Positions 3,804 to 59,670 of a stretch of 64,000 bases of DNA are shown here, piece by piece. The stretch is taken from contig NZ_JAAAKV010000009.1 of the NCBI RefSeq assembly GCF_009905725.1, positions 1 to 64,000 on the forward strand, written 5' to 3'. The notes beneath the pieces are model-generated. The model saw only the letters and a list, made by a program, of their open reading frames with translations, searched no databases and had not been told where the DNA came from. A program made the position numbers and the translations under genes. How positions within the stretch are numbered: position 1 is the stretch's first letter; the number at the start of each line of letters is the position of its first letter. The DNA comes from Emticicia sp. CRIBPO (GTDB lineage: Bacteria > Bacteroidota > Bacteroidia > Cytophagales > Spirosomataceae).

Positions 3804-5591
3804 ATGAAAACTATGCCGTTTTTTATCGTCGCCAGTATCATCATTGCAAGCATCTTCATGCCGGAAAACCTGAAAGCCATGCAGGACTCCGTCATCGTCC
3901 ATGTCCCGAAAGACACGCTCGCCACCAACAGCCCGGACAGTTCATCAGCCGACGCTGTCAAAGTAAAAACTGACACCCTCGCCAAAGCCAGAACCAAAAG
4001 CTGGGTGATCAGGGGCGAGGTCAATATCTCGACCGGATTCTACCGGATGACGGGATTGGACGCTCCCAGGGGACAAATGTTGCCGTGGGGTTTTACAGGC
4101 AAACTAACCCTGGCTTCAAAATCAGGCTGGATCATCCCCGTCACAGGCATTTACAGCAGCCAGAGCAACCGCTTCAGACAACCCTACAACCAGGTCGGGG
4201 CAAGTCCTGTATTTAAAGAAAAACTCATCCTGCATGCCGGATACCGCAATGTCTATTTCTCTCCCCTGACTTTGGCAGGGCATACATTCCTGGGAGGCGG
4301 GGCCGAGCTTCAGCAGAAAAAACTCCGGCTGGGGTTTGTTTACGGCAAGTTCAACAGGGCCATTGAATATAACCTGGCCCAACCGGACATTATCCCCTAT
4401 TTTAAACGCACAGGATTTGCCGCCAGGGCGGGTTTCGGCACGAAAGTCAGTTTCCTGGACCTCATCGTCATGAAAGTCGCCGACGATGTAAACTCCATCA
4501 ACACCCTGCCGGAAGAACAGGCGGTGAGCCCGGCCGAAAACCTGGTGATCGGACTCAGTTCCAGGGTTAGGATCAAAAAGAAATTCACTTTCGAAATGGA
4601 CGGATCCACCAGTGTTTTCACCCGCGACACCCGTGCTGAGGCCATCAGTGATTTCGTCAGCATTCCTTATTACGATGTCATTAAGAAGGTAGTTGTACCG
4701 AGAATATCCACCCAACTGAGTACCGCTTTTCAAACGGCGATAGGTTACAGGGCCAGGCATTTCAGCGGCAGGCTCCAGTACAAACGCATCGAGCCTGATT
4801 TCAAAACCATGGGGGCCTACTATTTCCAGAACGACATCGAAAGTTATACGGCCTCGCCTAACCTGACCTTGTTCAAGAGCAAGCTGAAGCTCAACACCAG
4901 CATCGGCCTTCAGCACGACAACCTCCTCAACCAGAAAAAAGCACAGACCAACCGCCTGATCGGCTCTGCAGCTTTGGTTTATGCCCCGGACGAAAACCTG
5001 TCGCTCGATGCCTTTTATTCCAACTATGGCATCACCCAGAAAGCCGGGTACATGCCTATCATCGATACCCTCAGAATATCGCAGAACAACAGGACCTTAT
5101 CTGCCAACGGCATTTACATGAAGATGGGAGAAACCACTGTAAAGACCTTTACAGCTACGGCCATCTACCAGGAACTCCAGGACCTGAACAGCCATACCTC
5201 GGCTTTCAACGAAAACAAAAACTGGAACTACAGTGCGAGCTACACCTACCAGGACCTCGTCTCGGATTTTGATTTCAGCCTTAACTATTCCTATACGCTG
5301 ACCAAAGCCGAAGACCTCAACAGCCTTTTCCACGGGCCAACCCTCAGCCTCAACAAAAGGACGCTCAAGTCTAAAAACATGCTGTTGAGTGCCAATGCAG
5401 GCTACATATTCAGCGAACAGAATATTTATGAATTCATCGAAAAAGGCGGCGTGCTCAATGCCTCCGCATCGGTTTCCTACACGCTTTTTGAACACCACAA
5501 CCTGTCTCTCAACTGGAGCATGATCAAAAGCACAGGCGGCCAGGCTTTTTCAGAAAACCGTGGCACCGTAGCTTATCAATTAACATTTTAA
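3804..5591 (+). CDS. outer-membrane beta-barrel protein, locus 1
   Basis: Encodes 595 residues. It has an N-terminal signal segment (about 1-25), a Ser/Thr/Asp-rich linker to about residue 65, then alternating amphipathic strands ending in the terminal pattern AYQLTF, as expected for an outer-membrane barrel. It is paralogous to the 559-residue barrel at 55247-56926: FRQPYNQVGASP (about residue 124), GYRNVYFSPLTLAGHTFLGG, GKFNRA and MGAYYFQNDI (about 336) have clear counterparts there. The gene is 11 bp upstream of an Ig-like secreted protein gene, the same order as in the second locus. No named family is recognised; it is not an obvious SusC or PorP/SprF protein. Role inferred as a surface or transport partner of the Ig-like protein. 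Confidence 0.8.
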   Translation: MKTMPFFIVASIIIASIFMPENLKAMQDSVIVHVPKDTLATNSPDSSSADAVKVKTDTLAKARTKSWVIRGEVNISTGFYRMTGLDAPRGQMLPWGFTGKLTLASKSGWIIPVTGIYSSQSNRFRQPYNQVGASPVFKEKLILHAGYRNVYFSPLTLAGHTFLGGGAELQQKKLRLGFVYGKFNRAIEYNLAQPDIIPYFKRTGFAARAGFGTKVSFLDLIVMKVADDVNSINTLPEEQAVSPAENLVIGLSSRVRIKKKFTFEMDGSTSVFTRDTRAEAISDFVSIPYYDVIKKVVVPRISTQLSTAFQTAIGYRARHFSGRLQYKRIEPDFKTMGAYYFQNDIESYTASPNLTLFKSKLKLNTSIGLQHDNLLNQKKAQTNRLIGSAALVYAPDENLSLDAFYSNYGITQKAGYMPIIDTLRISQNNRTLSANGIYMKMGETTVKTFTATAIYQELQDLNSHTSAFNENKNWNYSASYTYQDLVSDFDFSLNYSYTLTKAEDLNSLFHGPTLSLNKRTLKSKNMLLSANAGYIFSEQNIYEFIEKGGVLNASASVSYTLFEHHNLSLNWSMIKSTGGQAFSENRGTVAYQLTF

Positions 5592-5602
5592 AACTCAAAA
5601 AC

Positions 5603-6454
5603 ATGAAAAAATACCTCATTATCCTTCTCCTGATCTCAGGCGGCCTCCGTGCCCAACAGGTCACGGTCAATGTCTCTGTAGCCCCGCCGATGACCCCTTA
5701 TCTGCTCGACAATATTTTCAAAACCGGCAAGTTCAGCATCCAGATCAAAAACAACACCCGGGAAACAATCCAGTTGAAACTGACCGGCAGCATCGCCGGG
5801 GACAACGGACTGTGGCTCAAAACCAAGCCCAATTACCATCCTCCGAAACCTATTATTCTGAATCCGAACGAGATCAGAATCCTTAAAAACTGGCAGGAGT
5901 TGCAGGATTTTCTGGACGGCAACAATGTCGATTACTCAGAAATTGACCCGCAGACCATCGCCCGGAATGGTTTTCCTGAAGGCACTTACAACATCTGTGT
6001 AAAAGCCCTGGACTACCTGACCAACACTCCGCTGTCATTCGAAGAACCCCTGGGCTGCAGCAATGCCATCCATGTGCGTTACACCGAGCCGCCGGTCATC
6101 CTCTCGCCTGTTTGTGACGAAGAGGTACATGGGTCCAACCTCATTTTCAGATGGTCAGGGGTTGTCGGAGCTGCCACAAAAGTGACTTACTCACTAAAGA
6201 TCGTCGAATTACCTTTTCCGGAAGCAGATCCGAATGTCTTCATTGATGCCGTTGAAGTACCGTTTTTCGAACAGAAAGAACTGAACATCAACAACCTGGT
6301 ATACAATGCCTCCTTGCCTAAATTAAAGCCGGGCAAGTCCTATGCCATCAGGATCAAAGCCACAGACCCGCAGCATAAACTCATATTTTTAAACGAAGGC
6401 AAAAGTGCCGTCTGCAAGTTCATGGTCACAGATCTTCCCCATGAAAGCCATTGA
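5603..6454 (+). CDS. secreted Ig-like protein, short paralog of the giant protein's N-terminus
   Basis: Encodes 283 residues. The signal peptide ends at LRAQ (residue 18). The rest aligns with residues 20-290 of the 2048-residue protein at 49088: VTVNVSVAPPMTPY, TGSIAGDNGLW, the GxPEGxYxxCV motif, a second conserved Cys in PLGC, EPPVI, then a TYSLKIVE/PFFE segment and a GKSYAIRIKATD strand. This suggests two beta-sandwich domains, the second FN3-like. It stops where the giant protein continues for another 1750 residues. It follows the barrel gene by 11 bp and is almost certainly co-transcribed with it. Function unknown; inferred periplasmic or surface partner of the barrel. Confidence 0.8.
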   Translation: MKKYLIILLLISGGLRAQQVTVNVSVAPPMTPYLLDNIFKTGKFSIQIKNNTRETIQLKLTGSIAGDNGLWLKTKPNYHPPKPIILNPNEIRILKNWQELQDFLDGNNVDYSEIDPQTIARNGFPEGTYNICVKALDYLTNTPLSFEEPLGCSNAIHVRYTEPPVILSPVCDEEVHGSNLIFRWSGVVGAATKVTYSLKIVELPFPEADPNVFIDAVEVPFFEQKELNINNLVYNASLPKLKPGKSYAIRIKATDPQHKLIFLNEGKSAVCKFMVTDLPHESH

Positions 6455-45397: not shown

Positions 45398-47041
45398 TTA
45401 ATCTTTTCCTGTTGACAGTTGCATGACATTTCCGTAACTCGTTACTCCATTCGAGATGACATAAGCCCTGTAGAAATAGAATATTCCTCCTGTAACCACT
45501 GGCAGGTTCATAGAATAGTTGAATGGATAAGATCCCGGGTTGCTGTTCGATGACAGCTTGGAGTTGGCAGTAGTCGGAGTACTTGTGGCAGTTGAATAGC
45601 AAATGCCATATTCACTGACACCATAGCTTCCGCCGTTATCTATCCGGCCTGAGAACCGCATACCTTGTCCTCCTAGAAAAACCCCTCCGACGGTCGTCAC
45701 ACTGGCATTGACGACCACCGCTGTCCTGAATGACATGTTGTTTCCATAGATCGTCACGCCGTTGGAAACCACGTAAGCCCGGTAGTTATAAGCAGTGGAT
45801 GGCGTTAAACCTGTAGCATCTACACTGAAACTTGACGGAAAACCGCCCGGGTTACCGAACCGCTGCGACTTGGTATCTCCGGTGGTCGGATTAGCGTTGG
45901 TTGACCAGCAGATACCATATTCCGAGATCGGGTAAGAACCTCCCGAAGTAATGGTACCGTCGAGCCTGGCATAATTGACACTCACTGAACCTGAACCTCC
46001 CGTTGAGATTCCCGGATAAACCACATCGGAAGTTCTGAAGGTCAGGTTGGCTCCGTAAGTGGTCACACCATTCGAGATGACGTAAGCCCTGAAGTGGTAA
46101 GTGGTAGACGGATTCAGTCCGCCTGCATCCTGTACAAAGGTGTGAGGGAAGCTACCCACATTGCCAAACACCTGCGACTTGCTGTTTCCGGTGGTAGGAT
46201 TCGGGTTCGTTGACCAGCAGATGCCATGCTCGCTGATCGGGAATGACCCTCCGGATTTCAGGGTACCGCTCAGTTTGGCTGAATTTACCGATACTGAACT
46301 TGAACCGTCGGTGGTGATATCCGGCTGAACAATCACCGGTGTCTTGAAGGTCATGGCTGCACCGTAGCTGGTCACACCGTTCGAGATCACATAGGCCCTG
46401 AAGTTATAGGTGGTATTCTGTGTGAGGTCCCCGGCACTCAGGATGTAGGTATTCGGGAAAGTGCCGACATTGCCTGAATTGGAGGCTTTGGTATCTGCTG
46501 TGGTCGGGTTGGCATTGGTAGCAGACCAGCAAACCCCATATTCAGAAATCGGGAAGGTTCCTCCCGAAAGCAGCGTACCACCGATTCGGGCAGAATTGAC
46601 GGTGATGGCCGTGGCCGCATCCGTTCTGATGCCCGGCTGAATGATATTCAGTGTTTTAAAGGTGACCACTTCGCCGTAAACCGGTCCGCTGGCAATCGTG
46701 GCATACGGCCTTACATTGTATGAGGTATTGATCTTCAGTTCTTCTATCCTGTCCGAAAAACCAATCGGAGTCGGTGTCGTGGGATTTATAGCACCGTTGA
46801 CCGTTTTTAAGTCGCTCACCGTCGGTGCGGTATTGGTTTCAGAATAAACAAAACCGTGTTCCAGGATATCCTGGTTACCGGAATGACTGATGTTGGATGT
46901 CAGCACGGCCGCAGCGGTGGTGATACCCGACACCGACACAGGAGCCATGGTAGGTGGCGTAAGCGGCTCAGTCTTTAACTCGCATGACTGAAGTGTCATC
47001 ACCCACAGGGTGATGAACGACAAGATTAATTTAAGTTTCAT
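45398..47041 (-). CDS. surface lipoprotein with five tandem FN3-like repeats, locus 2
   Basis: Encodes 547 residues. The lipobox LQSC (Cys 20) is followed by five tandem units of about 95-100 residues (starting near 34, 136, 236, 335 and 436). The unit pattern is SGGxxPISEYGICWST, NPTTxxSK, GxFPxxF, then TxYxFRAYVISNGVTxYG and FxT. The middle three are the most alike, also in DNA. Such repeats build stacked beta-sandwiches on the cell surface in Bacteroidota. It is the last of the four-gene run that begins with the barrel at 56926, and lies 14 bp after the FN3-like protein gene. Role inferred as a surface component of locus 2. Confidence 0.85.
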   Translation of the reverse strand: MKLKLILSFITLWVMTLQSCELKTEPLTPPTMAPVSVSGITTAAAVLTSNISHSGNQDILEHGFVYSETNTAPTVSDLKTVNGAINPTTPTPIGFSDRIEELKINTSYNVRPYATIASGPVYGEVVTFKTLNIIQPGIRTDAATAITVNSARIGGTLLSGGTFPISEYGVCWSATNANPTTADTKASNSGNVGTFPNTYILSAGDLTQNTTYNFRAYVISNGVTSYGAAMTFKTPVIVQPDITTDGSSSVSVNSAKLSGTLKSGGSFPISEHGICWSTNPNPTTGNSKSQVFGNVGSFPHTFVQDAGGLNPSTTYHFRAYVISNGVTTYGANLTFRTSDVVYPGISTGGSGSVSVNYARLDGTITSGGSYPISEYGICWSTNANPTTGDTKSQRFGNPGGFPSSFSVDATGLTPSTAYNYRAYVVSNGVTIYGNNMSFRTAVVVNASVTTVGGVFLGGQGMRFSGRIDNGGSYGVSEYGICYSTATSTPTTANSKLSSNSNPGSYPFNYSMNLPVVTGGIFYFYRAYVISNGVTSYGNVMQLSTGKD

Positions 47042-47055
47042 GTTGTTAAGTTGTT

Positions 47056-49038
47056 TTAGAAGTTGAGCAATAAAGGTTCCGTCCGGTTACCTTCTTTGCC
47101 ATTGAGGTCAACGGTTGAAAGCACATAAATGTAACTTTTGCCTTTTTTGACCGTAATGTCTTTGAATTTCCTGAGTTTCCTGTCCAGCGTTGTGATGAGC
47201 TTTATCTGCCCGTCATCCTCTGCCCTGTATATTCTGATGCTTTTCAGCCTGTCAGTATCCACTTCTGTCCATTTCAGGGTAATGCCCTTGGGATCCATCT
47301 CATATCCGACTTCGTCCGGGACCATCACGAACATTCCGTTTAAATCCAGTTCCACAGGCGTACTTTTAGGACTGAAGTGTTCTTTGCCGTCTGTACTGAC
47401 TACGACATACTGGAATTTCAACGCAGAGGTCAGCAGAGAATCGGACCAGTAATTGTGGTAAAACGGCAGGGGCCTGGGCGTAATCAGCTTATATTCTTTT
47501 TCTGATTCCGATTTTCTGTAAACCTGGTAGCCCAGCACATCTGGCGAGGTATCATTGACGTTTTCCCAGGTAATTTTAGCTTTGTTATCCCTGAACACCA
47601 CGTTGATGTCATATGGCGGCTTTAACAAGCCCGTTTTTTCCGTGGCTGCCGGGCGATAGGATACGGTATCTGAAAAACCGCTTTTGTCATAGGTGTCACT
47701 CTCCGATTTAACGGCATAAAAATAATAGGACTCAGGATTCAGTCTTGTGGTATCTGTAAAACTCCCTTTTCCGTCCCTGATCAGAAGTATCGGTGACACC
47801 TGGGCAAATTCTCCGTCCAGGTCTTTTTTCCTGAACACATAAAAACCACGTGTTTTCTGGTCGGAAGACACCCAACTTAATGCCGGTCCGGCAGGCCCTG
47901 CGACCAGGTCCAGGTTCAAAGGGGCTGTCGGAACATATTTACCTTCGTACACATTCTGGTATTTGATGGTCTTTTTTACATTTCCGAACACATCACTGAC
48001 CTCAAAATAATAAAAATAAAGCTCGTTGGCTACCTGAATCTGGTCTTTGTAAGAAAGCTCATCTTTGTTAAACCTCGAAACGGCTTCGTATTTGCCGTCG
48101 AACTCCCTGCTGCGGTACAGGGTCACATTCTGTACAATATCTTTGGAAGTCAGATCCCAGCTGATGTTCACAAACCTTTCATCTTTTACCGGCTCGATTT
48201 TCACATTAAATACCTCGGGACCGGCCAGTTGCGGAATGTTCTGTCCTTCGAAATAGTAAACTGCGGTATCTTTGTTTCCGAATATATCACTCAATTTAAC
48301 CTGGTAATTGTATTCTCCATAGGAATCCAGCAAAGTGTCGGTAATCACTATCCCAGATTTTTTCGGGTCTTTCTGAAGGCTGACAGCGGGTTTTATCCGG
48401 CGGTATTCAGAGGTCTCCTGTGAGATATTCTTGCGGCTTACCTGGAAAACCGTGGTTTGAAACCATTGGACAGGATAGTTGCATTCCAGAACAACAGATT
48501 TATTGAGTTTTGTTGAAGACAAATTCTGTAGCACAGGAAAACGTCTCAATTTACGGTATTCAAAGGGGAACTTAGTGGCCATTAAAACCGTCCTGCCTTC
48601 TATCAGCTGATACTGATATTTTTCTCCGGGTCTTGTTTCCTTATCAAGATAAGCCAGACCGAAAATGTACTGAAGCTGCGGCAGAACGGATATGGCTCCA
48701 TACATCTGCTTGTCTTTTGCCTGGTACTTCTGCCAGATATTTTCAAGACCCGTTTCCGAAGGCCTTGCTCCTTCTTCAAAAATCCCGGCGGCTTCAGCTA
48801 TTTTACTTCTGACCAGCCCTATTTCACCGGGAGGGCTTAAGCGGGCAATGGTTTTAAATGCAGTTTCACCGGCCTTTTTCCTTTGCAATTCCAGGGTTTT
48901 TCCGACCAGGTCTATTCTCCCGCACTCTACAAATATGCCATTCGGAGTGAGGTTCAGTTTTAAGGGCTGCGGTGCCTTCTGGGCCATGGCACCGGACATC
49001 GCAAAAATCATAAAACCCAGGTATCTCAATATTTTCAT
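47056..49038 (-). CDS. secreted multi-FN3-like protein, locus 2
   Basis: Encodes 660 residues. A signal peptide ends at GAMAQ (about residue 20). From about residue 170 on there are repeated FN3-like units: GYQVYRKSESEKEY and GFYVFRKKDLDGEF show the typical interdomain strand followed by YxFYAVKSES or FQYVVVSTDG. The first 170 residues are not recognised. The frame also opens at a TTG 24 bp upstream (49062), but the ATG at 49038 gives a proper signal peptide. The distance to the giant protein gene is 49 bp and to the lipoprotein gene 14 bp, so it belongs to the same run. Function unknown. Confidence 0.82.
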   Translation of the reverse strand: MKILRYLGFMIFAMSGAMAQKAPQPLKLNLTPNGIFVECGRIDLVGKTLELQRKKAGETAFKTIARLSPPGEIGLVRSKIAEAAGIFEEGARPSETGLENIWQKYQAKDKQMYGAISVLPQLQYIFGLAYLDKETRPGEKYQYQLIEGRTVLMATKFPFEYRKLRRFPVLQNLSSTKLNKSVVLECNYPVQWFQTTVFQVSRKNISQETSEYRRIKPAVSLQKDPKKSGIVITDTLLDSYGEYNYQVKLSDIFGNKDTAVYYFEGQNIPQLAGPEVFNVKIEPVKDERFVNISWDLTSKDIVQNVTLYRSREFDGKYEAVSRFNKDELSYKDQIQVANELYFYYFEVSDVFGNVKKTIKYQNVYEGKYVPTAPLNLDLVAGPAGPALSWVSSDQKTRGFYVFRKKDLDGEFAQVSPILLIRDGKGSFTDTTRLNPESYYFYAVKSESDTYDKSGFSDTVSYRPAATEKTGLLKPPYDINVVFRDNKAKITWENVNDTSPDVLGYQVYRKSESEKEYKLITPRPLPFYHNYWSDSLLTSALKFQYVVVSTDGKEHFSPKSTPVELDLNGMFVMVPDEVGYEMDPKGITLKWTEVDTDRLKSIRIYRAEDDGQIKLITTLDRKLRKFKDITVKKGKSYIYVLSTVDLNGKEGNRTEPLLLNF

Positions 49039-49087
49039 TTTAAAACAGTTAAATCTTTTCAAAAAATTAGTCTCGGATCAGTGTTTA

Positions 49088-52000
49088 TCATTGCAGCTTC
49101 TGCACCGGCATACCGTTTCCGCAGTTGCCGAAAGAGAAACTCAGATCCACTTTGGGTTTGGTGGTCAAGTTCACCGAAAAATCCTTGCCTACGTCAAAGC
49201 CTGCACATTCATCTACTTCACCCAGCGGCCCAAGGTCCACTTTAATACAAGCTCCGAGGTTGAAAGACGCACCAACGCTTCCACAACCGCTAAGACCAAG
49301 GCTTTTTAATGTATTTTTGATACTCGCAAAATTCAGCCCTACCTGCGGCGAGGCCTCAGAAGTGAGGGCCACCTGGGCGTTGAACTTCACTCCCCCGCTG
49401 ACCCCGATACCTAAGATACTGGCCTCTCCGCCAACGTCAAACCCGGCTATGGCATACGCCCCCAGCTTGATGTCACATTGGGTGAAACTTCTGAAATTGA
49501 CAAACGATCTGAATTCCATCGCCCCACCTACTTTCGCCCAGCATTTGGCCACCGCAATTCCTCCGTCAAAACCGAAACTTTCATCAAATGGCGTAAAATT
49601 GACATTCACAGAATTGTAGACTCCCTGGATACCACTGGCCAGTTCGACTGGTAAAGACTTCTGAACAGACAAATCAGTAATGATCATCCTGTCTTCGTCA
49701 TAAATCGGTTTGGTGTAGTATCCGGCCAATACCGTTGACGCGGCATCCACAGGAATAGGCAGGCTGAACAGGGCCACTTCGCCCGTGCCGTTCAGCATGG
49801 TATACATGCCGTTGGTGCCTATCACCATCGATACGTTTCCTGAGGTGATGTTGACAATACCACAGGCAATCGGCACCGGAGGCGTGAAAGTAAACTGCCC
49901 CCTGACTTCCTGTCTGACGAAATTATAGAACAAAGTCACCCGCCCGATACCCGTTTCCATGCCTTTGACCCCGATACCGCTCTGGTCGTCGTTCATGTCT
50001 GTCACAATAGCTCCTTTAACCACCAGCACGAGCGTCCGGTCTTTTTCATCATCTTTCATATGTGAAAACCCTTTGTCTCCGGTAGGAAGCAAGGTCCTCA
50101 GGCTGAGGTTGTCCCAGGCTCCGCCGACCACCTTCATACTGCTGTTGGCCAGTCCCGGTTTTATCTCAAGATATTTCGATTCAAGAGGGACTTTCTGGTT
50201 TTCCAGCACTTCCACAGAGGTGCTGTAACCGTCTTTTGTCTTCTGATGCTTCAGCAATGTCTGCAGTAAAAACGACTTTCCGCTCGGCGAGTCATATACT
50301 TTCAGGGTTCCTTTCGCAGTATACAGCCCGCTGGAGATTGACTGACTTTTAGCGTCATCATCCGCATGGAATGACACCTGGCCTTTGCCCTCAATGTCAA
50401 AGAACAACGGTTTGATATCGGCTTTTACCTGTCCTGAGGCATTCTTGGAATATACAATCTGGCCCACTATACCTCCTCCGGCATTGTTCATATTCGGGAT
50501 GTCCATAGAAGCCTGCCCTACCAGTGTAAAGAAGTTGTTTCCTACATCAATGGTATTAAGGGCCAGTTTGAGCACCTTAAACAGCGTGATCTGCTTGGCA
50601 GAAGGCCCGTTGAGCTGTTGCTGGTTGTCAGAGAAGAGGTTCATGGAACCAAACTCCAGCTTCTGTCCGTCGTCCAGCCCGTCCAGTTTTGTCACCCTGG
50701 CAGCCACCTCTGCCCCACCTTTGCTGAGGACAGAGAGTTTCCAGTGCGGCTTATTGTCGTGATAGCAATTGGGATCATAAGAGAACAAGGTCTGCGAGCC
50801 GGGCAGGATTTCGAGCGGCACAATGCCCCCGAGTGAGAAAGCCGACGCATCTTTGCTGTCAAGCTCGAGCTTATCCGCAATGAGCTTGTCAGGCTTGATG
50901 ATCATGTTTTTAAGGTTAACGGAAATAATCCCGGTATTGACCACAGCCTTCTCAATCATGATACCGCCGTTGTTGTTGTCATATTTCCAGACCATGTTGC
51001 CGGTACCTTTCTGACCTACCACCTTCCATTTTTCAAGAGAAAAACTGATGTCGTCGCCCCCTTCAAAGGGCACTATTTTGTCCGGTAAAGCGGTGATATA
51101 CCCTGCTTTGAGGGCAATGTCTGCCGGAGAAACATCCTGGATGTTGGTATGAAGAATGGTATAGAACCTGACCGAGTCTCCATAAATGTAAGATTTGGCC
51201 ACATCCGCTTCGGCATTGAATTTATGTACTTTAAACTTCAGGTTGGCCATGGAAGTGTTGGAAACCGAACTGCCTATATTAAGCTTCCTTTTTTCAGCCG
51301 ATCCGGCTTTGAAGATCATAATATTGCCAGGGTTGCCGTTTTCACCCAACTCCACTTTACCTGAGAGCTGATAAGCCCCCTCAAAGGAAGACAACTGAAG
51401 CTGGACGGCCGCCCTGATCTCTCCTTTACCGTCACTGGCTTTCTGGGCATATAGCTTAGGAAAAGTGAGCCCGATGGCCGGTGCCGAAAGTGTATTTACA
51501 TTGGCTGTTCCCTGTAAACCTTTACCGATTTTCACAGGGAAGGTCTTCTGTTGGAGTTCCAGTTTATCTGACTGCGGCTGGTGCGTGTTGTTTCCGGCAG
51601 CAGTTTTGACGAATTTAATTTTCTTAAAGTCAAGCCTGTTCTGAGCATCTATTGAAGCAAAACTTCCGTTATCAGGCAGGTCATGCAGCGATCCGGACAA
51701 AAGGAATGAGCCGTCAGCCTGGGCCTCCACCACTTCTATATGTACCGGGAAACCCCACACATCTTTAACACTGAAATCCTTTTTAAAATCAAGCTTAAGA
51801 GCCACTTTGGACTGAAACTGACCGTTAAACCAATAGGCTTCCTTCTTCTCTCCGATATAATTTCCGGATTTATCTTCATTCGGAGAAGTCGCTCCTTTTA
51901 AAGGGTCCGGTCCGTTGGGCTTCTGAATAACCTGACCTGTTTTCACTCCAGGGTCTATGGTTCCTTTAAAATCCCTGACTCCTTCCTTCAGTTCATCTCC

Positions 52001-55000
52001 CACATTTTTGGACACGTAAACCTCCACATTGTTTTCCGCGACAGGAATGCCCCTGAGGCTGCAGTTTCCGTTGGCGTCTGTAAAGCATTCTGCATAATTG
52101 GCACTGCTGTTACCCCAACCGTTTTTCAGGGTTTTAACATATACTTTCGCTCCTTTGGAAGGCTGCGTCTTACCTTCTTTGACTTCCGTTACCGAAGCCA
52201 GGATTTCCTTGGCCGGAGTCAGGTCTACGACCTTATTGACCGGCTTTTTAGTGATTGGAATAATCACTTCCTCTTCCCAGTGAGAGAAATTATCTCCGGG
52301 GGCCGGTTTTACTTTTACGATGAATGAGGTTCCGGGGCTTTCAAATGTAATGGTGGCAATCCCTTTGGAGTCTGTTTTAGCGGTTACCTTGTCCTTGATG
52401 GTCACGGTAGCTCCTTCAAGCGGCATGACATCATTGCCCTGTTTGCCGTTCACTTTCACATTGATCCGGTGTTTCCGGCGAAGCACCACGAGCGTCCCGC
52501 CAGGAATGGTCGTGAGTCCGTCTTCCTTGATATCATAAATGAACTCTCCCTCGTAAAATTCAGAAGACCTCGGGAAAACTTTGATTTTCCTGGCTTTTCC
52601 ACCCGGTGCCGGGAATGAGGCACAACCTCCCAGGAGTCCGCTTGCTTCACTGGTCTTGTAAAGAGCTCCGTCTTCTACCTGCACGTCAGCCAGTACTTTA
52701 TTTCCGTCTTCGTCCGTCACACAGGCTAATATCGTGCCTGACGGCTGCATGGTGATTTCGTTGGTTTGCAGCAACTGCCCGCTCAGCAAGCTGAACGGCT
52801 TGTTATCAGCATTGAATGTTTTTGTCTTATAGCCGGATTTCTGGAATTCCAGGATATAATCACCCGGTGAGAGGTCTTTAAACTCAAAATAACCGTCGGC
52901 TGTAGTAGACTGGGCAGCTATGATATTGAATCCTGTCGTGACGTTTGTCTCTGTCAGGAATCCGAGAGGGTCCATTTTCTTTTCAGTAATGGTGGTCTGT
53001 TTCGCCTTTAAGAACACCGTCACACCTTTCAGTCCCATATTTTTCTCTACCACCTTGCCTTTCACCACGGGCTTTTTGGAGATCATCAGGACATCAATGA
53101 CCTCATTTGTGTATTTATAAGCGGAATTAAATTCCAGGTTTTCATCAAAGTCTCCGTCAAAGCCATTGGAATAAATGCCATTGCTGCTGTAGCTGTCTAT
53201 GGCTTTGATCCCATCCTTTTTATTGTAGTTCCCGACGTTGGTGTCTGAATAGGTATGAGCAATAAACACATCGTCTTTTTTGCTGCCGATCCTGATCACC
53301 CTCGGGATTTTCGCCACACCTTTGGCGTCTGTTTTACCCAGGGCCACCACCCTGGCCACTTTGCTGATCGGATAAATCCAGGAATACTCACCCATTTTGA
53401 GAGATTGTACCGAAGAGGCCGGCAGGTTTTGTCCCTCATTTTCAGGCAGTGAAATATCCATCGGGGTCCTTCTGAAAAGTTCCACGTTTATATTTTCCAG
53501 TCCACCCGACTTTCCTCCCATCTGGCCCTCTGCATCATTATTTTTAGCCGTAAGATGCATTTCAAAACTTTTTACCAGACCCACCATATCTGGTAGCATG
53601 ATGTTGTCTTTAGGCCTCGGATCGACCATCATAAAAGGGCTGCAATAATAAGGGCTTTCAACGATCAGGATGCAGGTTTTACGCATAAGCTTACCATTTA
53701 CGAGGGCTCCTTTTTCGACGATGGTAGTGTCTTCGCCGGTAGGACTCTGGTAAGAGGGCAGGTAGGTTGCCTTATCCGGCTCTTTGATGTTGAAGCTGAC
53801 GATAGAGGCTGTGTCCTTAAGCAGGAATCCGAGGTTAAACTCGCCGTTGTCGTTGGTATAGCCCGTAGCCAGGACCTTCGTCAGGGGCTGACTTTCAATG
53901 TTCTTATTATTCACGGTATAATCAACGAGGTCGGTTTGCCCGAGGCTGGTCAGTATCTTCCACCCGTTTCCTGCGTCGTACAGCGGAATCAACCCGCTGA
54001 GGTTCTGATCTTCACTTTTAAAAGCATACACCATCACCAGGTTCACTTTCACTTTTTTCATCGGTTTGGCCGATGGTGTGGGATTGAGGTGTGAGGCTGT
54101 TGAATAAAACGGATGCAGGAGATCTCCGGGCCTGTTCTGCTGTTTTGTGGTAAAATTACTTTTGCTGAGCACTTTCGTTGATCCCGAATAAGTATCCATT
54201 TTGTAATCTTCCGGGTACGCATACAGCAAACGGCCGCTTACCGAAGTAAACAGGTTCTTGATCTGGATATTCGGATCATATTTGAAGTCCTTCGGTGTCA
54301 GCGGGGTCTTTTTCTTGCCGGTCAGAGGCTCCTTAAAGTCAACCTTGGTGGCTTCCTTCTGTTTATAGGTAAACGCCCTGATCTCACTACGCCCCCCGTT
54401 TCTGAAAGCCGTCCCCTCACTGGTGGTGCGTTCAGCACTGAGCCTAATCTGGTCCAAAGCGGTGACAGCCCAGGCGTACTTCCGGCCGTTGACCAGCTGA
54501 GGATCTGCCGGACCATACACGTAAACATTGCCGGATACCACTTTTTCAAAAAACGGTGGCTGTGTAGATGAAAGGTAGGCGTCGTTCGGATTGCGTTTTT
54601 TATCAAATATCTCGACAATTTTCAACTTATATTGTGTACCCGGAGGAGCTCCGGCGGGCATTGTCCAGCTAAAAATCATGTTCTGAGGCTGAAAAGAAGC
54701 CACGTCCTCGTCTTCAAAAGGCTTAACCAGCATCGGCGGCTCCAGACGCGTCAGCCTGATGGTCGTACAACCCATCGGGGCTTCCGGAGAAAGCGGCACG
54801 GTCTGCCTGCTGAAATCATAGGCTCTGACACAAACCTGGTAAATGCCTTCAGGCAGCCCGTTTTTACGTTCGATATCCGACATTGAGATTCCCCTGGTGT
54901 TCAGCTGGTTCACATCAAATACATCCTGCAGATCACCTACGGTTAAGGTAAAAGGAATATTAGGCTCAAGGGTGATGCCCCTGGCAGGTCTGTAGTTGGG

Positions 55001-55234
55001 ATTGGTAAACACCAGGATGCCGTTGTCACCCGTAATGGTGGCTCTCAGGTAAACGGTTACAGCCCTTGGTTGGGTGTTTCTGAGGGTTACCAATGCCTTA
55101 CCCGGATTATTGGCATAATCGCTCAGGCGGGTCGAATAAGGGGGTACCAGGTTAATGCTGACACTGACCTGCGTTTGAGCCGACGCCAGCAGGGAGCTCA
55201 GAAGGAAAATCAAAAGTATAATTTTATTTTTCAT
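49088..55234 (-). CDS. giant secreted multidomain protein (2048 residues), locus 2
   Basis: A signal peptide ends at LASAQ (residue 20). Residues 20-290 are paralogous to the 283-residue protein at 5603 (TGDNGILVF, GLPEGIYQVCV, PMGC, EPPMLV, YKLKIVE, PPFFE). Next come an unassigned part to about 720 and several carboxypeptidase-regulatory-like beta sandwiches (about 722-810, 830-900, 920-980, 1010-1080; KGVTVFLKAK, GYFEFKDLSPGDYILEF, DANGNCSLRGIP). The second half (about 1130-2048) is beta-rich and repetitive, without a domain I can name. No typical T9SS C-terminal sorting domain is visible; the end is GNCGNGMPVQKLQ. It is 12 bp downstream of the barrel gene. Inferred cell-surface or periplasmic partner of the barrel. 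Confidence 0.85.
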   Translation of the reverse strand: MKNKIILLIFLLSSLLASAQTQVSVSINLVPPYSTRLSDYANNPGKALVTLRNTQPRAVTVYLRATITGDNGILVFTNPNYRPARGITLEPNIPFTLTVGDLQDVFDVNQLNTRGISMSDIERKNGLPEGIYQVCVRAYDFSRQTVPLSPEAPMGCTTIRLTRLEPPMLVKPFEDEDVASFQPQNMIFSWTMPAGAPPGTQYKLKIVEIFDKKRNPNDAYLSSTQPPFFEKVVSGNVYVYGPADPQLVNGRKYAWAVTALDQIRLSAERTTSEGTAFRNGGRSEIRAFTYKQKEATKVDFKEPLTGKKKTPLTPKDFKYDPNIQIKNLFTSVSGRLLYAYPEDYKMDTYSGSTKVLSKSNFTTKQQNRPGDLLHPFYSTASHLNPTPSAKPMKKVKVNLVMVYAFKSEDQNLSGLIPLYDAGNGWKILTSLGQTDLVDYTVNNKNIESQPLTKVLATGYTNDNGEFNLGFLLKDTASIVSFNIKEPDKATYLPSYQSPTGEDTTIVEKGALVNGKLMRKTCILIVESPYYCSPFMMVDPRPKDNIMLPDMVGLVKSFEMHLTAKNNDAEGQMGGKSGGLENINVELFRRTPMDISLPENEGQNLPASSVQSLKMGEYSWIYPISKVARVVALGKTDAKGVAKIPRVIRIGSKKDDVFIAHTYSDTNVGNYNKKDGIKAIDSYSSNGIYSNGFDGDFDENLEFNSAYKYTNEVIDVLMISKKPVVKGKVVEKNMGLKGVTVFLKAKQTTITEKKMDPLGFLTETNVTTGFNIIAAQSTTADGYFEFKDLSPGDYILEFQKSGYKTKTFNADNKPFSLLSGQLLQTNEITMQPSGTILACVTDEDGNKVLADVQVEDGALYKTSEASGLLGGCASFPAPGGKARKIKVFPRSSEFYEGEFIYDIKEDGLTTIPGGTLVVLRRKHRINVKVNGKQGNDVMPLEGATVTIKDKVTAKTDSKGIATITFESPGTSFIVKVKPAPGDNFSHWEEEVIIPITKKPVNKVVDLTPAKEILASVTEVKEGKTQPSKGAKVYVKTLKNGWGNSSANYAECFTDANGNCSLRGIPVAENNVEVYVSKNVGDELKEGVRDFKGTIDPGVKTGQVIQKPNGPDPLKGATSPNEDKSGNYIGEKKEAYWFNGQFQSKVALKLDFKKDFSVKDVWGFPVHIEVVEAQADGSFLLSGSLHDLPDNGSFASIDAQNRLDFKKIKFVKTAAGNNTHQPQSDKLELQQKTFPVKIGKGLQGTANVNTLSAPAIGLTFPKLYAQKASDGKGEIRAAVQLQLSSFEGAYQLSGKVELGENGNPGNIMIFKAGSAEKRKLNIGSSVSNTSMANLKFKVHKFNAEADVAKSYIYGDSVRFYTILHTNIQDVSPADIALKAGYITALPDKIVPFEGGDDISFSLEKWKVVGQKGTGNMVWKYDNNNGGIMIEKAVVNTGIISVNLKNMIIKPDKLIADKLELDSKDASAFSLGGIVPLEILPGSQTLFSYDPNCYHDNKPHWKLSVLSKGGAEVAARVTKLDGLDDGQKLEFGSMNLFSDNQQQLNGPSAKQITLFKVLKLALNTIDVGNNFFTLVGQASMDIPNMNNAGGGIVGQIVYSKNASGQVKADIKPLFFDIEGKGQVSFHADDDAKSQSISSGLYTAKGTLKVYDSPSGKSFLLQTLLKHQKTKDGYSTSVEVLENQKVPLESKYLEIKPGLANSSMKVVGGAWDNLSLRTLLPTGDKGFSHMKDDEKDRTLVLVVKGAIVTDMNDDQSGIGVKGMETGIGRVTLFYNFVRQEVRGQFTFTPPVPIACGIVNITSGNVSMVIGTNGMYTMLNGTGEVALFSLPIPVDAASTVLAGYYTKPIYDEDRMIITDLSVQKSLPVELASGIQGVYNSVNVNFTPFDESFGFDGGIAVAKCWAKVGGAMEFRSFVNFRSFTQCDIKLGAYAIAGFDVGGEASILGIGVSGGVKFNAQVALTSEASPQVGLNFASIKNTLKSLGLSGCGSVGASFNLGACIKVDLGPLGEVDECAGFDVGKDFSVNLTTKPKVDLSFSFGNCGNGMPVQKLQ

Positions 55235-55246
55235 GTCTTGGTTGAT

Positions 55247-56926
55247 TTAAAAGCTTAATGTGTAACCGAATTCACCCGTAAACTCCGAAAACCTGCCCGC
55301 CCCTCCGGACACTTCCTCGTCCGGTTTGTTACTCAGAGAATTGACCCTGAGGCTGAACCGGTGCTTCGGAAAAGGCTGATAGGCCACATTCCCTCCGAGG
55401 TTGATAATCGTGTTATTTCCCTGGGGCAACTTACTGATGATGTAGGAGTTGCTGCTGCTGACCTGCAATTTGTTTTTAAGAAAACCTTTGGAGGCCCCCA
55501 GCGTAAAACCCATGTTGTCAATGGTCTGATCTGCGAGTTTATTGGTCGTATAATTGACTCCCGACATGATCGTCAGGGCTATTTTATTGAGGGTGATGTT
55601 ATGATTCAATAAAGCCACACTTGAATTGATGTTATTCGTGATCTTGGTTTCATCGTTGACATCCACGAGATTACTGACATTATAAGAAAGTAGAAACACG
55701 TTGGTGGTGTTGACATTGGCCAGCACCAGCCTCGGGTTCACGGAAATATTACTGGTGGTCTGGGTCAGCAGGTATTTGTTCTGCACCAGTGCCACGGTAG
55801 GTTCTGAATTGGAAGAGAAATTGGTATAGTTGGCATCGACCCCGAATTTCTCATTGACATCGTAGGAAAGATTGAGCAGTCCGATTACCCTTTTGGTGGT
55901 GGCTTGTTTCTGTTGTTTGGTATTGTCCTGCTGTAAACCCAGGCTACCCATCAACCGAAGTTTACCTTTGAGGGCATTGAAAGTGGGAGATATCGTGAAA
56001 TTTTTTATATCATTCTGGAAGAAATAAGCCCCCATCGACTGAAAATCAGGATCGACATACTTATAGGCCAGCTTGAGTCCGAAGTTCTTTTCTTTGTAGC
56101 CCACCCCTCCGCTATAGGCCACATAGTATTCTGACGTTCCGTTGAGTTTGATCAGTTTGTTTAAGGTATTCAGGACTTTCAGTGAATCTGTACTGATGGC
56201 CATGGAAGAGTTAAAATCACGGGTATAAACACTGATGCCTACATCCGCAAAGACGAAGATTTTCTTCACGATCATCAGCTTCAGATCTCCGCCCACCACC
56301 ACGTTGGCTGCGGGTCTTACCTGGCTGGTGGCGAGGTCACCTTTGAAATCTTTTTCCCGGTCTTTGGCACTCAGGAAACTCAGGTCAAAATGATTTTCCT
56401 CCGTACCGTAACCGATCTTGGCGGCATACCCGAACCGTGAAAAACTATAGGGCTGGACGGCCCCGGTAGTGGTATCTACCGTGGTGGCCCGGTTCAGACG
56501 GCCGGCCATAAAACCAAACCTGAATTTTTTAGGATTAAGCTCCACCCCTGCTCCGAGCATGGTATAACCGGCCAGTGTATAGGGCAAAAAGCTGACATTC
56601 CTGAAACCCACATGGGCAGTGGCCCATTTGTAGGTCGGACTCATCCCGAACTGGTTAAAAGGCTGGCGGAACGATCTGTCCTGCTCACTGTAAGTAAATG
56701 AAAGGGGAATGGCGATGCCATAGAGTGACACCGTCGGACTTCCTGATATGATGTACATGAACGGGCTCCGGCGGGCAGCTATTCCGCTGGCCGAATAACC
56801 AATGCCTCGGATATCCAGTGAGCCGGTGATAGCAAAGGGTTTTTGTTTCGCTATGTTTTCAAGATCCTGTGCGTACATCTCCTGAAAACAAAGGATTAAA
56901 ATCCCTATTTTCATCAGTTTTCTCAT
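55247..56926 (-). CDS. outer-membrane beta-barrel protein, locus 2
   Basis: Encodes 559 residues. A short signal segment ends at MYAQ (residue 20). FRQPFNQFGMSP (about residue 86), GFRNVSFLPYTLAGYTMLGA, GRLNRA and SMGAYFFQNDI (about 298) are shared with the 595-residue barrel at 3804, as is the rhythm of short amphipathic strands. The last residues (FGYTLSF) form the aromatic C-terminus expected of outer-membrane barrels. It is the first gene after a consensus promoter at 56999-57029. A second ATG (56914) is possible. Not an obvious PorP/SprF or SusC protein. Role inferred as the membrane partner of the giant protein. Confidence 0.82.
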   Translation of the reverse strand: MRKLMKIGILILCFQEMYAQDLENIAKQKPFAITGSLDIRGIGYSASGIAARRSPFMYIISGSPTVSLYGIAIPLSFTYSEQDRSFRQPFNQFGMSPTYKWATAHVGFRNVSFLPYTLAGYTMLGAGVELNPKKFRFGFMAGRLNRATTVDTTTGAVQPYSFSRFGYAAKIGYGTEENHFDLSFLSAKDREKDFKGDLATSQVRPAANVVVGGDLKLMIVKKIFVFADVGISVYTRDFNSSMAISTDSLKVLNTLNKLIKLNGTSEYYVAYSGGVGYKEKNFGLKLAYKYVDPDFQSMGAYFFQNDIKNFTISPTFNALKGKLRLMGSLGLQQDNTKQQKQATTKRVIGLLNLSYDVNEKFGVDANYTNFSSNSEPTVALVQNKYLLTQTTSNISVNPRLVLANVNTTNVFLLSYNVSNLVDVNDETKITNNINSSVALLNHNITLNKIALTIMSGVNYTTNKLADQTIDNMGFTLGASKGFLKNKLQVSSSNSYIISKLPQGNNTIINLGGNVAYQPFPKHRFSLRVNSLSNKPDEEVSGGAGRFSEFTGEFGYTLSF

Positions 56927-57057: not shown

Positions 57058-57690
57058 TTAAATCAATTTATCACGAAAAGCCTTGGTTATGGCCTCTCCT
57101 TTTGAGTTGACCTGTAATTTCTGATAGATGTGCAGGATGTGTTTTTCAACGGTGTTGATGCTGATAAAAAAGTGGGCTGCAATGAGTTTATAACTGTCGC
57201 CTTCCACCAGCCTGCGTAACACCCCGACTTCACGGGTGGTCAGGTCATAAGGGTTGGCCTTAGGCTCCTGGAAAGAACTCAGCACTTTAAGAGCAATCGC
57301 CGGACTCATGGCCCCTCCACCCTTCGAAACGTCCCTGATGCCTTCTATGATCTTCTCCCCGGAGGTATTCTTGAGCAGATAACCCACTGCTCCGGCTTTA
57401 ATAGCCTCAAAAATCCTGCTGGTGTCTTCAAAAACCGTAAACATGAGTATTTTCGGCAAATGCGGGGATTTCTCAGAAATCAGTCTTACGGCATCAATTC
57501 CAGTCATCTGCGGCATTTCTATGTCCATCAGCACCACGTCAGGCAACTCATTTTTCAGATCTTCTATCACTTCGGTGGCGTCAAAGTGCACCCCCACCAA
57601 TATAAAGTCTTCGCAGGACTCTATAATCCAGGTTAATGTTTCGCTGAGCCGGGCGTTATCTTCGTAAAAGGAAACTCTTATCTTTGACAT
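57058..57690 (-). CDS. NarL/LuxR-type response regulator
   Basis: Encodes 210 residues. The receiver has the acidic pair E10/D11, the phospho-acceptor D56 (VVLMDIEMPQMTG), and FEAIKAGAVGYLLKNTSGEK. The DNA-binding domain is at the C-terminus (LTTREVGVLRRLVEGDSYKL, ISINTVEKHILHIYQKLQV). The start at 57690 follows an AGCAGGA-type ribosome site; a TTG upstream (57717) is less likely. The gene is 63 bp downstream of a TPR histidine kinase gene. The promoter of the barrel operon is the nearest downstream target. Confidence 0.9.
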   Translation of the reverse strand: MSKIRVSFYEDNARLSETLTWIIESCEDFILVGVHFDATEVIEDLKNELPDVVLMDIEMPQMTGIDAVRLISEKSPHLPKILMFTVFEDTSRIFEAIKAGAVGYLLKNTSGEKIIEGIRDVSKGGGAMSPAIALKVLSSFQEPKANPYDLTTREVGVLRRLVEGDSYKLIAAHFFISINTVEKHILHIYQKLQVNSKGEAITKAFRDKLI

Positions 57691-57753
57691 AATTCCTGCT
57701 TGAAATTGAATAAACAAAAGTAAAAGAACGATCTCTCACAAAAAATGACGGAT

Positions 57754-59670
57754 TCATGTAAGAGCAAAGCTCAGCGTGATCCTGGAACCCTCGCCCGGAG
57801 AAGATTCAACATCCAGCTTTCCCCCGATTTCTTCCGCTCTTATTTTCATGTTTTTCAAGCCGTTCCTTGAAGTATTCGCTGCCCAGTCAAACCCTTTGCC
57901 ATTGTCTGAAATGATCACCTGCATCACTTTCCTGGTCCTGGAAAAGCTCAGGGCCGCTTGTGTGGCTTCTGAATACTTAATCAGGTTGTTGATCGCCTCT
58001 TTCGAGATCAGGTACAGGTTTCTCCTGATTTCCATGGGCAACATCAATTGTTCAATATCCTTATCAGAGTGAAACTCGAAGGACATATTTTTTGATTCGG
58101 CCAGCGGCAGGGCATATTCCCTCAGTCTCAGCAAAATACCCTGCAGCGAGTCATTCACGGGGCTCACCGACCAGATGATTTCATCCACCGACTCCACAAT
58201 GTGCTGTGAGTCGGAGTGTATCTTGGAGAACATCCTGTTGCTTTTTTCTCCCTGATTGTCGGCTTTGGCCATACCGCTGATCAGCAGGATACTCGAAAGC
58301 GTACTCCCGATTTCATCATGCAGGTCAGAGGCAATTTTATTTCTCAGGGTTTGCGACTCCTCCAGGCGTTTCAGCTTGCTTCTGTTCATCAGGAAAACGA
58401 CGAAGGTTCCGGCCAGGAGGATCAGTAACACACCGCCGATCAGTATGCTTTTGTTCTGAAGGTTGGCTTTGGCATTTTTCTCGTTCAGCAAGGCGATTTC
58501 CTGTTCTTTTTCTTTGGTTTCATACTCCGTCAGGAGTTTTTGTGTGATCTCTTCCGTCTCTATCTTATAGGTCGAATCCTTCGCGGCTTCGGCATCCAGG
58601 CTATACTCGTAGGCTTTCTTATAGTCTTTTATCCCGGCATAATATCCGGAAAGGGCCGAGTTGGCGGCGAAAAGATGTTCGGGATCAGCCAGTTCTTTTG
58701 CTATTCCCAATGATTCCAGGTAACACTTACCGGCCTGGTCATATTTTTTTTGCTCAATATAAAAATCGCCTAAATTACTAAGGAGAACCCTGAGTGAGCT
58801 CCTGGCGTCTAACTCCCTTGCCACTTTTTCACTTCTTTTAAGATAATATTCTGCTTTATCCCAGTTTTTCTTATCAGTGTACAGCCGCCCGAGATTCGTC
58901 AGCAAGTCGGTTTGAAGCAACTCATAATTGGCCTTTTCAGCATAGCTCAAGCCGAGGTCAAAATGCCTGATGGCTTCATCAGGCTGTTTCATCAGTTCGT
59001 AGACATTACCGATCCTGTTTTCGGCGATGGCCATATTGACCAGGTCTTTATACTCCGTTTCGATCCGAAGTGATTTCTGATAATAAGCCATCGCTTCCTT
59101 ATACTTTCCTGCAAATGCCAGGTTATCCGCTATCTGATCATAAGGGCTTGTTTTTAAGGGATAAAGTTTATGCTTCTCCTGGTATTCGATCAGCTTCATG
59201 GCATATTCAGTCGCTTTTTTGCGGTCGCCCATCTGTGAATAAATGATGCTGATATTATTAAGTATATTCTGATAATAGGCTTTGGAGAGCTTATATTTCT
59301 CGATGATCCTCAGGCATTCCGTAAAATACTCCAGGGCTTTCCGGGAGTTTTGCTGCGAGTATTCCTTTACTCCCCTGAGGTTGGTCGTTTTGTAATATCC
59401 GGAACCATAGTCAGCCTTTTCAGACATGGCGGCCATCACCTTAATGACCGAATCAGCCAGTTTAAAATCACCTTCCTGTATCAGCAGAAAACCGTACTCG
59501 TTAAGGGCCAAAACATAGGTGGTGTCTTTCGGATGCGTTTTGAGATATACTTTTAATGAATCAATGGTAGAGGGAAACTGAGCAAAGGCAGAAGATGACA
59601 AAAGGCTGATAAATGCCACTACCCATAGAAGGCTGCATTTTTTACCGGGGCACCTCAGCTCTGGAAACAT
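57754..59670 (-). CDS. TPR-containing sensor histidine kinase (HisKA_3 type)
   Basis: Encodes 638 residues. A signal peptide (to about residue 31) leads to a periplasmic TPR superhelix (about 45-370; KALEYFTECLRIIEK, KEAMAYYQKSLRIE, DEAIRHFDLGLSYAE). A coiled coil (about 370-405) and one transmembrane helix (about 408-428) follow. Then come the dimerisation helix with the phospho-acceptor H451 in DLHDEIGSTLSS, and a HATPase domain (SKEAINNLIKYSEATQAALS, ISDNGKGFD, NGLKNMKIRAEEIGG). The NarX-like class pairs with NarL-type regulators such as the next gene. The N-terminal TPR array may sense a peptide or protein signal (inference). Confidence 0.92.
   Translation of the reverse strand: MFPELRCPGKKCSLLWVVAFISLLSSSAFAQFPSTIDSLKVYLKTHPKDTTYVLALNEYGFLLIQEGDFKLADSVIKVMAAMSEKADYGSGYYKTTNLRGVKEYSQQNSRKALEYFTECLRIIEKYKLSKAYYQNILNNISIIYSQMGDRKKATEYAMKLIEYQEKHKLYPLKTSPYDQIADNLAFAGKYKEAMAYYQKSLRIETEYKDLVNMAIAENRIGNVYELMKQPDEAIRHFDLGLSYAEKANYELLQTDLLTNLGRLYTDKKNWDKAEYYLKRSEKVARELDARSSLRVLLSNLGDFYIEQKKYDQAGKCYLESLGIAKELADPEHLFAANSALSGYYAGIKDYKKAYEYSLDAEAAKDSTYKIETEEITQKLLTEYETKEKEQEIALLNEKNAKANLQNKSILIGGVLLILLAGTFVVFLMNRSKLKRLEESQTLRNKIASDLHDEIGSTLSSILLISGMAKADNQGEKSNRMFSKIHSDSQHIVESVDEIIWSVSPVNDSLQGILLRLREYALPLAESKNMSFEFHSDKDIEQLMLPMEIRRNLYLISKEAINNLIKYSEATQAALSFSRTRKVMQVIISDNGKGFDWAANTSRNGLKNMKIRAEEIGGKLDVESSPGEGSRITLSFALT

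Follow-up and report, generated by a model that had tools for sequence, protein, structure and literature searches.

Genes of the two loci and the TANFOR identity of the N-domain

A 64,000-nucleotide stretch of the Emticicia sp. CRIBPO genome (contig NZ_JAAAKV010000009.1, positions 1 to 64,000; hereafter the window) carries two related gene sets, each beginning with a predicted outer-membrane barrel. At locus 2 the barrel is followed by a giant secreted protein, an FN3-like protein (FN3P) and a lipoprotein, and at locus 1 by one short protein (Table 1). Here we describe this cassette and the pairing of its barrel with the N-terminal domain (N-domain) of the giant. All six open reading frames (ORFs) were open at the positions of the original prediction, and its gene order and gaps were reproduced: 12 bp between barrel and giant, 14 bp between FN3P and lipoprotein, and, between giant and FN3P, 25 bp if FN3P starts at its listed TTG or, as in the earlier figure, 49 bp if it starts at the ATG of codon 9. 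The longer gap is likelier because all 50 FN3Ps of an alignment share Met 9.

Table 1 Features of the two loci in the window
Feature	Positions	Strand	Size	Remark
Outer-membrane barrel, locus 1	3804..5591	+	595 aa	32% identity to locus 2 barrel
Stand-alone TANFOR N-domain protein, locus 1	5603..6454	+	283 aa	Front module only; no body, no FN3P
Lipoprotein (called by eye), locus 2	45398..47041	-	547 aa	Accessory of close relatives only, with about five fn3-like repeats of 103 residues
FN3-like protein FN3P	47056..49062	-	668 aa ORF	Signal peptide by eye; back module, part 2
FN3P, alternative start (ATG, codon 9)	end at 49038	-	660 aa	
Giant secreted protein	49088-55234	-	2048 aa	From ORF list
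Exchangeable body of giant	49088..54334	-	about residues 301-2048	Family T0/type A; back module, part 1
TANFOR N-domain and adjoining Ig/FN3-like stretch of giant	54335..55234	-	about residues 1-300	Front module, part 2
Outer-membrane barrel, locus 2	55247..56926	-	559 aa	Front module, part 1

The paralogy of the two loci is solid, as had been proposed. Their barrels share 32% identity over 547 columns (E 4e-78), and the 283-aa protein of locus 1 is 35% identical to the N-terminal part of the giant over 270 columns (E 1e-41). No third copy of the barrel or the N-domain was found in the genome of CRIBPO (6.06 Mb, 39 contigs; E limits 0.01 and 0.001), in which FN3P and a giant-type body occur once each at the same limits.

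While the original prediction knew of no named family covering both barrel and N-domain, the N-domain does have a name. The NCBIfam model TIGR02542 (TANFOR) matched residues 22-142 of the giant (E 6e-13, 48.9 bits) and also the 283-aa protein (E 8e-6, 25.8 bits); neither reached the curated cut-off of 67 bits. This suggests that the N-domain of the window is a diverged relative of the TANFOR domain. TANFOR has been published as the N-terminus of Bacteroidetes polymorphic toxins (PMC7073777, Jana et al. 2020), near whose genes SprB-repeat and C-terminal domain (CTD) genes are enriched. In that paper, secretion of TANFOR toxins by the type IX secretion system (T9SS) is only hypothesised and the exit route is left open; elsewhere, TANFOR is listed as a trafficking marker (PMC11796102). 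By sequence, the N-domain gave seven weak matches to solved structures, the best of which was titin (E 0.0067).

In a sample of 395 Bacteroidota genomes, TIGR02542 found 10 at E<=1e-5, none above its cut-off, and the N-domain profile built in this analysis found 97 at E<=1e-8. Considering the sampled genomes, and bearing in mind that the two E limits differ, the TANFOR class looks commoner than its library model indicates.

Pairing of the barrel with TANFOR

Barrel and N-domain occur in the same genomes. Among 99 relatives, CRIBPO included, the barrel was present in 34 and the N-domain in 33; 33 genomes had both, 65 had neither and one had a barrel only (Fisher p 1.7e-25, uncorrected for relatedness). 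In the barrel-only genome (G001), the gene next to the barrel is a divergent TANFOR (L109, E 4.6e-27). In the phylum sample, where three and six candidates were scored per genome and the counts are thus lower bounds, the barrel was detected in 87 genomes at E<=1e-30, a limit picked after looking at the data, and all 87 had an N-domain at E<=1e-8. Ten of the 97 genomes with an N-domain were TANFOR-only. With looser barrel limits, barrel-only genomes numbered 3 at 1e-25, 9 at 1e-20 and 58 at 1e-8. Chance co-occurrence is excluded by the p values for the relatives and for the phylum (9e-77, likewise uncorrected for relatedness).

The two genes are also neighbours. Barrel matches in the relatives filled 63 rows, two genes (in G053 and G082) filling two rows each. 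An N-domain match lay downstream on the same strand within 512 bp in 45 rows, at 1063 bp in one more and at 7.2-8.6 kb in six; it lay upstream or on the opposite strand in two, and one further row was the G082 fragment. The remaining eight rows had no N-domain match within 20 kb on the same contig. Three of these eight barrels (L104, L108, L109) adjoin a TANFOR gene according to the profile, and a fourth (L107 in G025) has an opposite-strand neighbour. In the other direction, 19 N-domain rows lacked a barrel row within 20 kb on the contig, some of them lying at contig ends.

A set of named loci was collected by scanning GTDB contigs with the barrel alignment and taking the best 80 of 258 relatives, i.e., loci picked by barrel similarity. 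TANFOR was the next gene after the barrel in 80/80, of which 76 were recognised by an ORF script and four, where the script had dropped the barrel ORF, from a side-by-side tblastn match and TANFOR ORF. In all 76 script-found loci the genes were on the same strand with a gap of -95 to +154 bp. FN3P was one of the four following genes in 63, and of the 13 loci without it several offer little remaining room. The loci span, among others, Emticicia, Dyadobacter, Spirosoma, Hymenobacter, Pedobacter, Sphingobacterium, Mucilaginibacter, Chryseolinea, Flavobacterium and Bacteroidales metagenome-assembled genomes.

Further substantiating the pairing, seven natural fusions join both partners in a single ORF of 863-1016 aa, with TANFOR N-terminal and the barrel C-terminal (L199-L205). 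They were found among 20 stretches fetched for odd arrangements, long frames or weak matches, and hhalign assigned them to the TANFOR and barrel profiles with 99.9% and 100%, respectively. Because the N-terminus of outer-membrane barrels is normally periplasmic, the TANFOR domain of such a fusion should sit in the periplasm or in the barrel lumen.

Together, the co-occurrence and adjacency surveys confirm that barrel and N-domain form a conserved pair. Frequent separation of the two families would have spoken against this proposal, and they are not rarely adjacent. The barrel is a near-obligate partner of TANFOR, a pairing that is well supported and new, the position of TANFOR at toxin N-termini being already published. 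We found no report of a TANFOR barrel partner in the open-licence full-text literature, a search outside which supplements, preprints and most subscription papers fall. The terms barrel, porin, usher, two-partner and outer membrane protein had no matches in the main text of PMC7073777.

Two exchangeable modules within the cassette

To describe how the parts of the cassette diverge, we used 78 loci with a barrel of 480-700 aa, an adjoining TANFOR ORF of at least 1300 aa and an FN3P within three genes. They derive from 86 loci (the window, L064-L117 and L118-L197) after removal of eight duplicate barrels; the set omits split arrangements as well as TANFOR proteins below that length, some of which are toxins. 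Pairwise distances correlated most strongly between barrel and N-domain (r 0.895, Spearman 0.80) and between FN3P and body (r 0.85, Spearman 0.44). All other combinations were weaker: N-domain and body (r 0.55, Spearman 0.24), barrel and body (r 0.53, Spearman 0.23), N-domain and FN3P (r 0.46, Spearman 0.11), barrel and FN3P (r 0.45, Spearman 0.09). The N-domain thus tracks the barrel, the product of a neighbouring gene, despite sharing one polypeptide with the body.

Bodies fell into five families of 29, 21, 14, 11 and 3 loci (phmmer single linkage), some with remote kinship by profile. Quick trees required 23 changes of body family for the barrel, 22 for the N-domain and four, the minimum, for FN3P; for the last, the only tree shuffled, the shuffled mean was 41.6 changes and 0/200 shuffles were as low as four. 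Among locus pairs with barrels at least 42% identical, body families differed in 358/576. Barrel and N-domain identities still correlated at 0.86 within the 2238 pairs of different body family.

Individual genomes illustrate the exchange. In bacterium A37T11, two cassettes (L146 and L148) have barrels 89% and N-domains 86% identical, with bodies at 11% and FN3Ps at 20%; blastn similarity between these 21.7-kb loci is confined to 2.5 kb from barrel start to N-domain end (79% DNA identity). Two Spirosoma loci (L195 and L185) and L076, which comes from the same family as CRIBPO, have barrels 86-88% identical and bodies of three families. In Larkinella (L183 and L188), the match runs from the upstream genes through the N-domain, after which the loci diverge.

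Since the N-domain follows the barrel and the body follows FN3P, the cassette is made of two exchangeable modules, barrel plus N-domain in front and body plus FN3P behind, with the border inside the giant gene. The 283-aa protein of locus 1 stops where this border lies in the giant, and locus 1 therefore represents the front module alone. Similar short TANFOR forms occur in L091, L108 and L109. This agrees with the earlier view of locus 2 as an extended version of locus 1. The proposal that the four genes of locus 2 form one system did not hold, as they are not one unit: the giant is split between the modules and the lipoprotein is not part of the core.

The lipoprotein is an accessory confined to close relatives. 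It has an LQSC lipobox recognised by eye and five units spaced 103-106 residues, of which units 2-5 are clearly alike (scores 186-352) and unit 1 is weak (57-94; shuffle maximum 57); the repeats match Pfam fn3. Its family stands at position +3 from the barrel in the window and in 6/49 relative loci with a script-found barrel. In the named loci it was called in 11/80, lying downstream of the barrel in 9/11, plus L172.

What the giants carry at their other end was examined in the C-terminal 320 aa of 104 TANFOR proteins, 44 of them encoded in the window and relatives' loci and 60 in named loci, after removal of truncated, short and duplicate ones. Pfam at E<=0.001 recognised B_lectin and a VgrG3-like C-terminus in two each, CHAT, WHH, DUF3289 and DUF6795 in one each, and five beta-sandwich families, CarboxypepD_reg among them, in one each; NCBIfam recognised a putidacin-like lectin bacteriocin in two. 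Toxin-like domains were thus seen in few C-termini, and most had no recognised domain. In the last 320 aa of the window's giant, Pfam and NCBIfam recognised no toxin family, and they recognised no immunity-like gene in the two genes downstream (FN3P and lipoprotein). It is possible that the payload of the window is an undescribed toxin. A toxin at the very C-terminus of the giant was rejected: the match of four close relatives to its body stops about 60 residues before the end, and a tail of that size is too short for a convincing toxin domain. The body itself has a CarboxypepD_reg-like domain near residues 771-807. An AlphaFold2 (AF2) model of residues 1085-2048 was of low confidence (pLDDT 76.4, pTM 0.49; Foldseek top TM-scores near 0.1), too poor for anything to be drawn from it about the fold.

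A split arrangement was seen in five loci (L087, L100, L103, L106 and L114), with a barrel, a body-only protein, FN3P and then a separate TANFOR protein, which is cut off by the contig end in L114 and has a VgrG3-like C-terminus in L100 and L106. The profile matches of these body-only proteins are to the region after TANFOR in giants other than the window's.

Proposed docking of TANFOR by the barrel and competing explanations

The barrel of the window had no Pfam match at E<=1 and a single NCBIfam match far under its cut-off; neither database recognised a plug or POTRA domain in it. No solved relative of barrel or body was found by sequence at E<=1. An AF2 model of barrel and N-domain as one chain (123 rows) reached a mean pLDDT of 86.5 and a pTM of 0.64. 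About 25 long strands were modelled, most barrel blocks at a pLDDT of about 90 or more, which points to a barrel of about 24-26 strands; a pore of that size could hold an Ig-like domain. The top Foldseek matches of the barrel model were MtrB (E 1.8e-10) and the FimD/PapC ushers (FimD E 6e-9), at modest TM-scores of 0.34-0.48 by target length (6r2q_B, 3rfz_B, 2vqi, 3ohn) and about 10% identity. The likeness to MtrB and chaperone-usher barrels is limited to fold, and Pfam recognised no usher domain in the barrel. In two further loci (L207, L208), with ORFs of 815 and 819 aa, a full barrel is followed by about 250 additional C-terminal residues.

The pairing of barrel and N-domain and their correlated evolution, while the rest of the giant swaps with the FN3P gene, suggest a dedicated device by which surface proteins and toxins that can replace one another are docked or exported. 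We consider it rather probable that the cassette consists of two exchangeable modules and that TANFOR docks at the barrel, by which changeable payloads are exported or anchored. The barrel would bind the TANFOR/Ig-like N-domain either on its periplasmic face or within the lumen, and the attached payload would thereby be exported or anchored at the cell surface. FN3P would be the cognate partner of the body, acting in assembly, stabilising or display, and locus 1 would be a front module without payload. As a way of organising an already known class of proteins the cassette is well supported, and no account of it was found in the literature searched; export and surface display are its presumed purpose. 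A near-obligate and sometimes TANFOR-fused barrel is a direct candidate for the exit route of TANFOR toxins, and the position of the module border within the giant gene accounts for the service of one docking end to several unrelated payloads.

Several observations weigh against this reading. Body families differed in 36/454 locus pairs with FN3Ps at least 25% identical. Distances between bodies and between FN3Ps have almost reached saturation (medians 0.87 and 0.81), lowering their correlation with the barrel, and linkage alone could make adjoining pieces swap together. Docking is not established by the joint model of barrel and N-domain, given its pTM. Finally, the T9SS pore SprA was present in 97/97 TANFOR genomes of the phylum sample vs 206/298 others (p 9e-14), and export may therefore need the T9SS.

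A bolder version of the docking reading is that barrel and TANFOR N-domain constitute a self-contained, two-partner-like secretion and display system of the Bacteroidota outer membrane, independent of the T9SS translocon, with an N-terminal Ig-like signal, an MtrB-sized barrel, exchangeable payloads and a cognate FN3 partner. We regard this as tentative, and on balance doubtful. In two-partner secretion, the gene of the TpsB barrel adjoins that of TpsA, a giant adhesin or toxin in which the N-terminal domain of about 300 aa is conserved and the body variable. The cassette shares this layout of a barrel next to a giant conserved at its N-terminus and variable in its body. Unlike in TpsB/TpsA, its barrel is larger and its N-domain is Ig/FN3-like, and no POTRA or haemagglutinin-type TPS domain was found in the window proteins (Pfam, NCBIfam, E<=1). 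The TANFOR polymorphic toxins described in PMC7073777 share the N-terminal TANFOR, the large secreted protein with a variable rest and, near some loci, SprB and CTD genes, but have a C-terminal toxin, which, like a downstream immunity-like gene, was not recognised for the window's giant.

It is unlikely that TANFOR proteins are T9SS substrates and that the barrel is a PorP/SprF-like shuttle or surface anchor serving an N-terminal signal. PorP/SprF barrels are described as pairing with type B CTD cargo, and the barrel gene is often linked to that of its cargo, a surface protein (PMC12618676, PMC9143113), a linkage resembling that of barrel and giant in the cassette. A SprB-repeat family stood at position -1 of the barrel in 16/49 relative loci with a script-found barrel, and the member scanned (L098) has a type A CTD exactly at the cut-off. 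The SprA association adds to this case, but SprA is near universal in the relatives (97/99) and present in 303/395 genomes of the phylum sample, and there the association is confounded by phylogeny, as 14 of the 20 SprA-negative genomes listed (of 92) belong to one family. Co-occurrence with the T9SS was therefore set aside as a discriminator, being weak in the relatives and significant but confounded across the phylum. Neither T9SS CTD model (TIGR04183, TIGR04131) matched the window proteins, the giant and FN3P included, or the 104 TANFOR C-termini (E<=0.001) or the 50 FN3Ps (E<=0.01). The identification of the barrel as PorP/SprF was rejected, because it had no PF11751 match at E<=1 and an hhalign probability of 1.6%, with no detectable kinship. 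The shared part here is N-terminal, and the barrel, at about 560 aa and about 25 strands, differs from PorP/SprF. The four PF11751 genes of CRIBPO are other genes on other contigs. The SprB-repeat neighbours fit the T9SS neighbours described in PMC7073777.

That the pair is a surface sensor, TANFOR protein and barrel reporting an outside signal to regulators, seems improbable. Remote barrel cousins of about 800-900 aa lie beside FecR-domain and CHASE2-cyclase genes, with a TANFOR-like gene in L211 and L212; a two-component system lies upstream of locus 2, its response-regulator family standing at position -1 in the window and five relative loci; and the barrel NsrA is described as feeding CHASE2 cyclases in S. 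meliloti (PMC13001267). However, no FecR or cyclase gene was recognised in the scanned window proteins, and a plain sensor is hard to reconcile with payloads that are exchangeable and about 2000 aa long. Very improbable indeed is a nutrient-uptake pair, e.g., a porin with a surface binding protein: the barrel is large and the fn3-like lipoprotein partly matches the arabinosidase model NF049889, far under its cut-off, but none of the window's cassette proteins had a recognised plug, TonB or SusD-like domain, and toxin-like C-termini occur in the TANFOR class.

The barrel cousins themselves (L209-L212) have an N-terminal extension of 250-300 aa unmatched by the barrel and TANFOR profiles. Their neighbours are a FecR-domain gene and a CHASE2-adenylate/guanylate cyclase gene, recognised by Pfam in L210 and L211 and by size in L209 and L212, an arrangement that resembles a surface-sensing system with the same barrel at its core. 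The interpretation of such weak 800-aa barrel matches as TonB receptors was dropped after inspection of these four.

Directly upstream of the barrel operon of locus 2, the two-component system (57058-59670, minus strand) consists of a LuxR-type response regulator and a TPR histidine kinase; the relative loci with its response-regulator family at position -1 are L064, L072, L075, L079 and L083. At the start of the window, a row of small cysteine-containing ORFs with signal-peptide-like starts spans 185-1779 on the plus strand (185-700, 825-1250 and 1342-1779), the latter two being clearly similar by eye.

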